This document shows, in pieces, positions 38,282 through 46,610 of a stretch of 64,000 bases of DNA (the stretch's first letter is position 1; the number at the start of each line of letters is the position of its first letter). This stretch comes from Shinella daejeonensis (GTDB lineage Bacteria > Pseudomonadota > Alphaproteobacteria > Rhizobiales > Rhizobiaceae), in assembly GCF_024281235.1 (NCBI RefSeq), contig NZ_JAHWXY010000001.1:496001-560000 (forward strand), read 5' to 3'. The notes under the pieces are model-generated. The model did not search any database and was not told the origin of the DNA. It worked only from the letters and a program-made list of their open reading frames with translations. Both the position numbers and the translations under genes were made by a program.

Positions 38282-39160
38282 GTGAGCGAAATCCGCCTCT
38301 ATACCTCGACGACCGAAAAGGATGCCGGGGCGATTCTCGATCTTCTGACGGATGCCTTCGAGGAAGAGGGCTACGCCATCGCCACCATGGAGGTCGACGA
38401 GAAGAACGACGTCTGGGAAGCCTCGGTCTACCTGATGACGAGCGAGGCGGAGGCGATAGGCGAACGGTTCGCCGCCCTGCTCGCCGCCCCCTTCCCCGGC
38501 CTTTCGATCGAGCGCGAGGTGCTGCCGGACGTCGACTGGATCGCGCTGTCGCTCGAAGGGCTGAAACCGGTACGGGCCGGACGCTTCGTGGTGCACGGCT
38601 CGCATGACCGCGGCGCCGTGCGGGCCGGCGAGATCGCCATCGAGATCGACGCCGGACAGGCCTTTGGCACCGGTCATCACGGCACGACGGCCGGCTGTCT
38701 CGAAATGATCGCCGGCGTTCTGCGCTCGCGCAAGATCCGGCGCGTGCTCGATCTCGGCACCGGCAGCGGCGTTCTGGCGATCGCCGCGCGCAAGTTCGCG
38801 CCCGTCCGCGTGCTGGCGACCGATATCGATCCGGTCGCCACGAAGGTCGCCCGCGAGAACGTCCGCCTCAACGGCATCACCTCGGATATCACGCTCGAGA
38901 CCGCGCCGGGTTTCCATTCCACGGCCTTCCGCCGGCACGGACCGTTCGATCTGATCATCGCCAATATCCTCGCCCGGCCCCTGATGCGCATGGCTCCCCG
39001 GCTGGCCGCCGAACTTGCGCCGGGCGGCCACGTCATCCTGTCGGGCATTCTCGCCGAACAGCGCTGGAAGGTGCTCGCCGCCTATAACGGCGCGGGCCTG
39101 CGCCATGTGCGCACGATCTGGCGCGACGGCTGGGTCACCATTCACCTCGATCGCAACTGA
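38282..39160 (+). CDS. prmA: Ribosomal protein L11 methyltransferase
   Basis: This 292-residue SAM-dependent enzyme trimethylates L11 amino groups. The SAM-binding block is RVLDLGTGSGVLAIAARKF near residue 155, followed by ATDIDPVATKVARENVRLNG, and the substrate loop is IANILARPLM. GQAFGTGHHGTTAGCLE just before the fold is typical of PrmA. The start codon is GTG at 38282. It ends 9 bp from the 3' end of a convergent small-RNA candidate. Confidence 0.94.
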   Translation: MSEIRLYTSTTEKDAGAILDLLTDAFEEEGYAIATMEVDEKNDVWEASVYLMTSEAEAIGERFAALLAAPFPGLSIEREVLPDVDWIALSLEGLKPVRAGRFVVHGSHDRGAVRAGEIAIEIDAGQAFGTGHHGTTAGCLEMIAGVLRSRKIRRVLDLGTGSGVLAIAARKFAPVRVLATDIDPVATKVARENVRLNGITSDITLETAPGFHSTAFRRHGPFDLIIANILARPLMRMAPRLAAELAPGGHVILSGILAEQRWKVLAAYNGAGLRHVRTIWRDGWVTIHLDRN

Positions 39161-39168
39161 GCGGGAAC

Positions 39169-39201
39169 AAAAAAGAAAGGCGGTGCCAGAGGCACCGCCT
39201 T
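39169..39201 (-). terminator. Rho-independent terminator of the small RNA candidate
   Basis: AAGGCGGTGCC-TCT-GGCACCGCCTT in minus-strand sense is followed by TTTCTTTTTT. The T-tract exists only on the minus strand, so it ends a minus-strand transcript rather than prmA. Confidence 0.85.
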
Positions 39202-39325
39202 CGGACCGGAAACCCGGCCTTGCCCGCGAGCTGAGGAGGAGGAGTGCTCAAGCGGGCCTATGCATTCCGAACGTCTTCCCGGAGGAGGGAGGAGGAGTGA
39301 CCGGCAAGACGCCTGATCGGAATGC
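39169..39325 (-). ncRNA. Candidate three-hairpin small RNA with anti-Shine-Dalgarno loops
   Basis: On the minus strand three stem-loops follow each other. Hairpin 1 (39262-39325) pairs GCATTCCG with CGGAATGC and CGTCTT with AAGACG, and presents ACTCCTCCTCCCTCCT in its loop. Hairpin 2 (39222-39257) pairs GCCCGC/GCGGGC and GAGC/GCTC, with loop ACTCCTCCTCCTCA. Hairpin 3 is a strong intrinsic terminator. Unpaired CTCCTCC is complementary to ribosome binding sites, and this architecture recalls the alphaproteobacterial anti-SD small RNAs such as the alpha-r14 family. The 5' end and promoter are not defined; an upstream TATAAG near 39431 is one -10 option. The rest of the prmA-pepP gap (to 39663) shows no convincing gene. 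Confidence 0.7.
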
Positions 39326-39663
39326 CTAGCTTTTTCTCCACGTCTGCGAGATCTTCCAAGCAAGATGTAAAGCGTTGACTTTCCATCTCTTTTTCTTGAA
39401 GCGCATCTCGCGTTCGCTTCGATGAGGGCCTTATAAAGGATTCGCGCCGAAGGGACAGCATTTTTCGGGCATGGGAGCCATGCAATGAATGCATACGTCC
39501 GGCATCAGCGACGGACGGGGCAGTCCTTCCCCTGAAAACGCCGGCGGAGAACCCGTCTTGCGACGCGACTGCGGGCCGCTATTCCCCTGCGCGGGCGTTT
39601 CCTCGCCCGCACCGATGCGATAGATTGCCGGCAAGATTCACCAGTCCCCCGGAAGTTTCCCCC

Positions 39664-41499
39664 ATGTTCCAGAGTTTCGACGTCACCTCCACGTCCCGGT
39701 TCGGCCGCGAGCGCGCCGATGCTCTCCGCGCCACCTTCGACGGCCTCGGCATCGACGGCTTTCTGGTGCCCCGCGCCGATGAATATCAGGGCGAATACGT
39801 GCCGGCATCGGCCGAGCGGCTCGCCTGGCTCACCGGCTTCACCGGATCGGCCGGCATCGCGCTGGTGACGCGCGATCAGGCGGTCGTTTTCGTCGATGGC
39901 CGTTATGTCACGCAGCTTGCCGAACAGGTGGACGGCAGCGTTTTCACCGGCGGCGACCTTGTCGACGAACCGCCGCACCTCTGGCTGCCGAAACACGCGC
40001 CGAAGGATTTTCGGCTCGGCATCGATCCGTGGCTGCATACGGGCGCGGAAGTGCGGCGGCTGGAAAAGGCGCTGGCCGCCGTCGACGGCGCGCTCGTTTT
40101 CCTGCCCCACAATCCGCTCGACCGCCTCTGGACCGGCCGGCCGGCCGAACCGCTCGGCGCCATCGCCATCCAGACGGTCGACCATGCCGGAGAGCTTGCC
40201 GGCGACAAGCTTGCCCGGATGGCCGAAGCCACGCGGGCGGCCGGCGCCGATGCGCTCGCGGTCACCGATCCCTCCTCGATTGCCTGGATCTTCAATATCC
40301 GCGGCAGCGACGTGCCGCACACCCCGCATCCGCTTGCCCGCGCCATCCTTCCCGCCGAGGGCCGCCCGCAAATTTTCCTCGACAAGCGCAAGACCGGCAT
40401 CGAGCAGGAAGCCTATCTGACGCAGTTTTCCGACATGCTGCCGCCCGCCCGCTTCGACGGCGAGATCGCCGCCCTCGCCGAGGCGGGACGCCGCATCCTG
40501 ATCGACCCCGACCACGCACCCTTCGCGCTTGCCGAGGCGATCCGCCGCAAGGGCGGAACACCCGTCGAGGGAGCCGACCCCGCCCGCCTGCCGCGCGCCT
40601 GCAAGAACGCCGTCGAGCTGGAAGGCTCCGCCCGCGCCCATCTTCAGGACGGCGCGGCGATGGTCGAATTCCTGGCCTGGCTCGACGGCACGGAACCCGG
40701 CTCCCAGACGGAGATCGCGGTCACGAAAAAGCTGGAGGACCTGCGCCGCGAGGTCGGCGAGCGGATGCAGAACCCGCTCAGGGACGTTTCCTTCGACACG
40801 ATCGCCGGCGCGGGCGCCCATGCCGCGATCATGCATTACCGGGTGACGACGGCCAGCGACGCGCGACTTGAAACCGGCACGCTGTTCCTGATCGATTCGG
40901 GTGCGCAATATATCAACGGCACGACGGATATCACCCGCACCGTCGCCATCGGCACGGTGCCGGAAGAGCAGAAACGCTTCTTCACGCTCGTCCTCAAGGG
41001 AATGATCGCCATCAGCGTCGCCCGTTTTCCGAAGGGCACGCGCGGCTGCGATCTCGATCCCCTCGCCCGCATCGCGCTGTGGAAGGCAGGCGTCGATTTC
41101 GCCCATGGCACCGGCCACGGGGTCGGGTCCTACCTTTCGGTGCACGAGGGGCCGCAGCGCATTTCCCGCCTGTCGACGCAGGAATTGCTCGCCGGCATGA
41201 TCCTTTCCAACGAGCCCGGCTACTATCGGCCCGGCAGCTTCGGTATCCGCATCGAAAATCTCGTCCATGTCCTGCCGGCCGCCCCAGTCGAGGGTGGCGA
41301 CATCGCCATGCTCGGCTTCGAAACGCTGACCTTCTGCCCCATCGACCGCCGTCTCATCCTGACGGACCTGCTGACGCAAGAGGAACTGGACTGGCTCAAC
41401 GCCTATCACGCCGAAACCCGGGAGAAGATTTCGCCTCTTCTCGCTTCGGCGGAAACGCGAGCCTGGCTGGACGCCGCGACCGCGCCGGTCAGCCGGTGA
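39664..41499 (+). CDS. pepP: Xaa-Pro aminopeptidase (aminopeptidase P, M24B)
   Basis: This 611-residue cytosolic metallopeptidase removes an N-terminal residue preceding proline. The long form has two creatinase-like N-terminal domains and a C-terminal pita-bread domain with metal ligands in FLIDSGAQYINGTTDITRT (two Asp), FAHGTGHGVGSYLSVHEGP (His) and LSNEPGYYRPGSFGIRIENL (Glu). The length fits the eukaryotic-like long APP found in alphaproteobacteria. The ATG at 39664 is preferred. Its 3' end overlaps the convergent azlD-like gene by 11 bp. Confidence 0.93.
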   Translation: MFQSFDVTSTSRFGRERADALRATFDGLGIDGFLVPRADEYQGEYVPASAERLAWLTGFTGSAGIALVTRDQAVVFVDGRYVTQLAEQVDGSVFTGGDLVDEPPHLWLPKHAPKDFRLGIDPWLHTGAEVRRLEKALAAVDGALVFLPHNPLDRLWTGRPAEPLGAIAIQTVDHAGELAGDKLARMAEATRAAGADALAVTDPSSIAWIFNIRGSDVPHTPHPLARAILPAEGRPQIFLDKRKTGIEQEAYLTQFSDMLPPARFDGEIAALAEAGRRILIDPDHAPFALAEAIRRKGGTPVEGADPARLPRACKNAVELEGSARAHLQDGAAMVEFLAWLDGTEPGSQTEIAVTKKLEDLRREVGERMQNPLRDVSFDTIAGAGAHAAIMHYRVTTASDARLETGTLFLIDSGAQYINGTTDITRTVAIGTVPEEQKRFFTLVLKGMIAISVARFPKGTRGCDLDPLARIALWKAGVDFAHGTGHGVGSYLSVHEGPQRISRLSTQELLAGMILSNEPGYYRPGSFGIRIENLVHVLPAAPVEGGDIAMLGFETLTFCPIDRRLILTDLLTQEELDWLNAYHAETREKISPLLASAETRAWLDAATAPVSR

Positions 41500-44660: not shown

Positions 44661-46610
<1,950 letters not shown>

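Follow-up and report, generated by a model that had tools for sequence, protein, structure and literature searches.

A conserved structured RNA with anti-Shine-Dalgarno loops between prmA and pepP in Shinella and related genera: a probable trans-acting small RNA that may descend from a protein-plus-RNA locus

Introduction

The cuckoo RNA family and the CIN1 locus reportedly go back to Reinkensmeier and Giegerich in 2015, and the ar14 family presumably corresponds to RFM SmelA075. Rhizobial RNA families with anti-Shine-Dalgarno (aSD) motifs are presented as multicopy, with synteny that is mostly fragmented; families with three and four hairpins are described and two-hairpin forms are mentioned (PMC3927594). 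The ar14 RNAs have three hairpins, each with an unpaired CCUCCUCCC motif, and for the ar14 member NfeR1 of Sinorhizobium meliloti the study describes a promoter that LsrB binds and activates, with TGCA-N6-GCAT at -72 to -60, and silencing of ntrB by pairing of the aSD motifs at its ribosome site (PMC10746234). The gene lsrB/vtlR precedes abcR1 both in S. meliloti and in A. tumefaciens (PMC8844928, PMC7486931); for S. meliloti, LsrB did not control the AbcR RNAs under the conditions of one study (PMC7486931) and does control AbcR1 according to the other (PMC8844928). In Rhodobacter, the CcsR RNAs and the small DUF1127 protein CcaF1 are encoded on one transcript, and short DUF1127 proteins often accompany CcsR-like RNAs (PMC10253847).

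Here, we describe an RNA locus between prmA and pepP that resembles each of these systems in part. It shares with ar14 tandem aSD-loop hairpins, an intrinsic terminator and a sigma-70-type promoter (here predicted) with a LysR-type transcriptional regulator (LTTR) box near -70. Unlike ar14, it has four hairpins: loop 1 carries the exact motif, loop 2 carries CCUCCUCCU, and hairpin 3 and the terminator loop lack the motif, so that an extra aSD-free hairpin precedes the terminator; the prmA-pepP location is a further difference. As reported for the cuckoo/CIN1 type, adjacent hairpins expose CCUCCUCCC-type loops, and in some relatives the RNA has a short protein gene as its neighbour, whereas the Shinella locus has no protein gene, the relatives' protein has no Pfam DUF1127 hit and loop 2 is again CCUCCUCCU. 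The small protein gene followed by aSD hairpin RNAs on one presumed transcript in relatives recalls CcsR1-4 and ccaF1 of Rhodobacter sphaeroides, which lie under an RpoHI/RpoHII promoter (PMC10253847) rather than an LTTR-box promoter. AbcR1/2 (ar15) likewise combine aSD motifs with an upstream LTTR box, and VrsA and Atu1667 of Agrobacterium tumefaciens, small VtlR-activated transcripts under a VtlR box (PMC7486931), are similar by description. In the literature searched, which took in main texts and, in part, sRNA surveys of A. tumefaciens and S. meliloti, we recognised no RNA between prmA and pepP and met no prmA-pepP branch that lacks a protein gene.

Results

We analysed a 64,000-nucleotide stretch of the Shinella daejeonensis genome (NCBI RefSeq assembly GCF_024281235.1, contig NZ_JAHWXY010000001.1, positions 496,001 to 560,000), hereafter called the window. 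On its plus strand, prmA (ribosomal protein L11 methyltransferase; 38282-39160; PF06325, E 3.7e-61) and a pepP-like M24 aminopeptidase gene (39664-41499; PF00557 and PF16188) enclose an intergenic stretch whose minus strand, at 39329-39169, holds two hairpins with aSD loops, a small hairpin and a terminator; prmA is the convergent neighbour and pepP the divergent one. An earlier note on this DNA had proposed a three-hairpin RNA here. Both loop sequences that it named can be read on the minus strand: ACTCCTCCTCCCTCCT spans 39298-39283 and ACTCCTCCTCCTCA spans 39245-39232. Hairpin 1 (39258-39329) has the loop ACUCCUCCUCCCUCCU, with an exact CCUCCUCCC at 39295-39287, and hairpin 2 (39222-39257) has the loop ACUCCUCCUCCUCA with the variant CCUCCUCCU. 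The count of three covered the two aSD hairpins and the terminator but overlooked hairpin 3, a short GC stem without an aSD motif at 39204-39219, between hairpin 2 and the terminator. Hairpin 4 (39169-39202), whose loop also lacks the motif, has the features of an intrinsic terminator, with a 12-pair stem at 39202-39176 followed by CTTTTTT, as the note had described; 8 of 10 stem pairs are invariant across 23 distinct sequences, while a plain terminator scan of 39100-39700 by itself was at chance level (one found, 0.8 in shuffles). The minus strand from 39330 to 39160 folds at -83.6 kcal/mol, compared with -60.2 +/- 4.3 for dinucleotide shuffles (z -5.4), none of 200 of which folded as well.

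The locus is widespread among relatives. A DNA search of 60 relatives and the genome itself gave matches in 24 of 61, including all 20 other Shinella as well as genome G031, at 87% identity; an exact pattern scan of the named genomes returned 17 stretches, 13 from Shinella and the others from Rhizobium alarense, Rhizobium sp. RU20A and two MAGs. We built a covariance model (R1) from 25 aligned sequences and ran it on 394 genomes of the family at an E value of 0.01, which produced 122 matches in 110 genomes. The best 90 of the 122 matches, from 89 genomes, were examined, with the 32 others (E 1.4e-5 to 0.0099) set aside; 305 of the 394 genomes have none of the 90 examined matches. Among these best 90, 75 were flanked by prmA and pepP in the expected orientation, 13 had either prmA or pepP no more than 1.5 kb away and two lay beside neither. 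Twelve of the 90 loci came from the 25 sequences of the model itself, and 76 of the 78 new loci were linked to prmA and/or pepP; because synteny was not part of the model, this linkage is independent support. The two unlinked loci (L193 and L195) score above the ar14 threshold and are therefore probably paralogues. An order-wide search gave matches in 8 of 199 genomes in all, with just five matches outside the family, all weak (24-33 bits).

The fold is kept across these loci. Stretches of 136-150 nt from four relatives had fold z-scores of -4.6 to -2.0, and the distant relative L064 had one of -2.0. For 87 of the 90 loci, the minimum free energy fold of the single sequence showed a CCUCC motif in two or more hairpin loops. 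The folds of 12 of the 88 linked loci showed three aSD loops, and in the two of these that were read (L187 and L191) the third was the terminator loop.

The stems also vary as paired RNA would. Compensatory changes in relatives, which the earlier note had proposed as a check, occurred in 13 of 48 pairs among the 25 sequences (23 distinct, window included), with a shuffle mean of 4.0 and none of 500 shuffles reaching 13; structures slid along this alignment gave 3-5 such pairs. A weaker measure, the number of further pair types, was equalled by 14 of 500 shuffles in the same sequences. With the 88 linked loci, 85 of them distinct, compensatory changes appeared in 44 of 48 pairs (shuffle mean 33.3, 0 of 500 as high; slid structures 16-25), and the covariation score was 0.601, compared with 0.203 in shuffles and at most 0.103 in slid structures. 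The larger alignment was fitted to the structure, which favours covariation, and the smaller alignment, made with MAFFT, therefore gives the cleaner evidence. Hairpin 3 had compensatory changes in all five of its pairs, with 99.5% of cells paired in the 88 linked loci.

These results bear on whether the stretch acts mainly in cis, as a transcription terminator of prmA with the remainder incidental. Just past the prmA stop codon, the terminator stem forms a perfect inverted repeat, so that the plus strand can fold into a hairpin too. However, the U tract is on the minus strand, with no T run after the stem on the plus strand, and a prmA terminator would leave unexplained both the covarying aSD stems and the conservation of the minus-strand box and promoter; we consider a purely local role very improbable.

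Upstream of the hairpins, the minus strand carries a predicted sigma-70-type promoter, CTGTCC-N17-TATAAG (39430-39458), with a predicted transcription start site (TSS) at about 39423, and an LTTR-type activator box, ATGCATTCATTGCATGGCTCCCAT (39471-39494), which contains TGCA-N6-GCAT at 39493-39480, placing that motif at -70 to -57 relative to the predicted TSS. Similar promoter elements lie at the same place in relatives, in the common order ATGC-N7-GCATGGC[A/T]CCCAT, a CTNTCC-like -35 element, a spacing of about 17 nt and a -10 element resembling TATAAG or TATAT. A scan with a strict E. coli-type consensus reported no promoter at the predicted start of the RNA. The longer box was found with at most two mismatches in 76 of the 90 loci and in none of 90 shuffled loci (more than two mismatches in the other 14), the pattern having been derived from these same loci and the control being one mononucleotide shuffle per locus. 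In the genome of the window (4.66 Mb), ATGC-N7-GCAT-N43-46-TATA had four matches and its reversed control none: at the prmA-pepP RNA, upstream of ar14 copy 1 and before two DUF1127 genes (C22:181562 and C31:45406). The site near ar14 copy 1 (C31:44922-44985) is about 135 nt upstream of the ar14 match, which starts at 45121. The shorter pattern TGCR-N6-GCATGGC had 17 matches, compared with five in the control. Both patterns were written after the promoters were known, so these counts show specificity and not discovery.

From promoter to terminator, the predicted RNA spans 39169-39423 on the minus strand. Its start is probably near 39423 and its length about 255 nt, both ends being predictions from promoter position and terminator; the extent of 39169-39325 given in the earlier note thus included the 3' part with the terminator but probably began about 100 nt too far downstream. 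The predicted full RNA, taken from 39423 to 39165, folds at -112.2 kcal/mol (z -4.4). Its 5' leader (39330-39423), where relatives have a small open reading frame (ORF), contains in Shinella an ATG at 39386-39384 that begins a 42-codon frame extending into hairpin 1. Conservation, covariation and the conserved promoter together make a structured RNA gene with aSD loops well supported. Beyond the earlier note, the analysis adds the LTTR-box promoter, a fourth hairpin, a longer predicted transcript and the relatives' small protein gene.

The activator is probably of the LsrB/VtlR type, judging from the sequence and position of the box. The window box is of the NfeR1 type, TGCA-N6-GCAT, and its position class is like that of the LsrB site of NfeR1, counted here from a predicted TSS. 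It reads GCATGGCTCCCAT, without the TG that belongs to the VtlR motif as published (GCAT-N3-TG-N3-T, the AbcR1/VtlR type), so the activator may be another LTTR. In the same genome, GCAT-N3-TG-N3-T is present at abcR1, which is directly preceded by a LysR-type gene. We observed two forms of the box in this genome, GCAT-N3-TG-N3-T (AbcR and two DUF1127 genes) and GCATGGC(T/A)(C/A)CCAT (the prmA-pepP RNA and upstream of ar14 copy 1), which may be read by one regulator or by two.

Rfam had no match at gathering threshold anywhere in the window. The prmA-pepP RNA scored 22.2 bits with the ar14 model (RF02344), compared with a gathering threshold of 58.8, a match that is not significant by itself because the ylbH leader family scored 22.1 bits on the plus strand; sub-threshold ar14 matches also occurred in 9 of 14 control genomes. 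Among 18 loci scanned with Rfam, three of the 16 linked ones (L175, L181 and L186, all of genus g108) were just above the ar14 threshold (59-63 bits). Together with the three aSD loops in 12 of 88 folds, this suggests that the RNA, although below threshold, is best placed in the ar14/cuckoo group, as a divergent branch whose layout has four hairpins. Of the kinship with ar14 that had been suggested for it, membership thus fails on the score and on the terminator loop without an aSD motif, whereas a divergent relative remains a fair description.

Permissive Rfam matches, including ylbH, suhB, CcsR1, DUF1874 and others, were far below their thresholds (suhB/mmgR, RF00519, 17.7 bits for a threshold of 41; CcsR1, 16.1 for 65.3). 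AbcR/ar15 (RF02345) had five matches in the genome, three of them over threshold (C11:718023, C11:718242 and C22:362728, the third with GCAT-N3-TG-N3-T upstream) and none at prmA-pepP. A CIN1 or CcaF1-CcsR type locus with DUF1127 was likewise rejected, as none of the five PF06568 matches in the genome is at prmA-pepP. The true ar14 genes of the genome lie at C31:45121-45245 (L056, 119.3 bits) and C22:180988-181113 (L057, 107.2 bits), each with a DUF1127 gene no more than about 300 nt away. Since these two ar14 and three AbcR copies are elsewhere, the prmA-pepP RNA is a separate locus.

In Rhizobium alarense, the promoter and the hairpins are separated by a 51-codon frame that has a ribosome site, and in several other genera a basic protein of 50-57 amino acids (MANSFFR...LDDETLKGMGTSREELRRKG) is encoded at the same place, just before the RNA. 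Carriers include L139, L154, L155, L161, L173, L176, L177, L179, L180, L184, L192 and L194, with the frame mostly at about 1345-1519 when the loci are turned to the RNA strand. A profile built from 16 members found 19 of the 90 loci at E < 1e-6 and seven more weakly (E 5e-5 to 0.04), 26 in all, and recovered three loci outside its building set (L183, 8.8e-16; L114, 3e-14; L121, 4e-7). Differences at codon positions 1 to 3, counted over all pairs of 11 sequences, numbered 701, 600 and 1317, a third-position lean as expected of a coding frame. Pfam gave no credible match and no DUF1127 for the 15 members scanned, and NCBIfam gave no match for the five scanned; the protein resembles DUF1127 faintly, in the C-terminal half of that domain (hhalign E 0.003, probability 10).

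The gene is absent from the 21 Shinella genomes (the window's own and 20 others), where the best profile E value was 0.13. This also bears on the 42-codon frame of the window (MESQRF..., start 39386), which could be taken as the true product, with the hairpins just shaping its mRNA. Its start lies at about the start of the relatives' ORF, and the accompaniment of CcsR-like RNAs by short DUF1127 proteins (PMC10253847) would fit such a product. The profile, however, misses the window locus as it does the other 20 Shinella, Pfam and NCBIfam are empty for the frame, and the variation follows base pairing, so a peptide as the product is the most improbable of the readings that we weighed. The absence of a profile hit at the window locus likewise led us to reject the idea that this frame is a remnant of the small protein.

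We mapped the frame on a PrmA tree of 83 of the 90 loci, rooted at the midpoint; the seven loci without a PrmA stretch, including the ORF carriers L173 and L180, were left out. On this tree the label 'ORF present' requires seven changes (at least four forced by well supported branches) and the label 'absent' eight (at least five forced). Homologous frames scattered over the tree make ancestral presence with repeated loss the simplest reading, although the root is a midpoint and gains are possible.

Discussion

Taken as a whole, the locus probably encodes a trans-acting aSD small RNA of the cuckoo/ar14/CcsR kind, activated by an LTTR of the LsrB/VtlR type, acting by blocking ribosome sites and descended from a protein-plus-RNA locus; we put the probability of this account at roughly 0.72. 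An activator of the LsrB/VtlR sort would act from the TGCA-N6-GCAT box at about -70 to -57 and drive the sigma-70-type promoter, and the resulting RNA of about 255 nt would stop at the intrinsic terminator. Hairpins 1 and 2 would then present CCUCCUCC-type loops, resembling the aSD of 16S rRNA, which could pair with purine-rich ribosome sites and so block translation of many mRNAs, probably including those of transporter genes. By analogy with NfeR1, the RNA should block ribosome sites.

The pattern GGAGGAGG-N4-10-ATG occurs 29 times in the genome, compared with three times for a control, a high count being expected given that Shine-Dalgarno sites are common. A strict rule (a frame of at least 90 amino acids with no in-frame start upstream) leaves 7 of the 29, four of which are transport components, namely two ABC ATPases and two solute-binding proteins; two further genes with GGAGGAGG sites, encoding a desaturase and a DctP protein, were picked by eye. 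The four of seven are a hint that transporter mRNAs may be among the targets. Because aSD loops match most ribosome sites, target prediction is weak, and the broad regulation of ABC transporter or metabolic mRNAs that had been proposed for this RNA is plausible, with weak support from these four genes.

Alternatively, the RNA may have no particular mRNA targets, its loops being a general decoy that competes with 16S rRNA, or it may simply add to the ar14/AbcR pool. The loops contain what we take to be the 16S aSD core (a search for the 16S gene of this genome did not find it), and two ar14 and three AbcR copies exceed threshold in the same genome. On the other side, the loops share the polarity of the ar14 loops, so the two would not be expected to pair with each other, and the ar14 member NfeR1 represses ntrB by pairing at the ribosome site (PMC10746234). 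We therefore regard a decoy or pool function as unlikely and favour blocking of specific ribosome sites.

The prmA-pepP RNA may be an mRNA that has shed its coding part and retained the regulatory tail, given that some relatives still have the small protein gene before the RNA. We infer an ancestor with a gene for a protein of 50-57 amino acids together with the RNA, from which Shinella would have lost the protein gene while keeping promoter and RNA. The locus is thus a relative of the aSD families that can be traced at one place across many genera, with or without the upstream small protein. This series opens two questions to testing: whether such RNAs originate in the 3' portion of mRNAs for small proteins, and what number of aSD RNAs a single LTTR-controlled network requires.

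More tentatively, and with somewhat less than an even chance in our estimation, the locus could be a natural mRNA-to-small-RNA series, in which an ancestral LTTR-controlled small basic protein was encoded ahead of aSD hairpins, the protein was lost in several lineages, selection retained the promoter and 3' RNA module, and the region of the former ORF start turned into a third aSD hairpin in two Shinella. In these two loci (L050 and L052, of the 23 loci L031-L053), CTCCTCCTCCC lies between complementary arms where the ORF began, a possible third aSD hairpin. The element reads CGAAGTG-AACTCCTCCTCCCA-CGCTTCG and occupies the site of the small-ORF start in R. alarense, and the L050 leader folds as such a hairpin, weakly (z -1.5).
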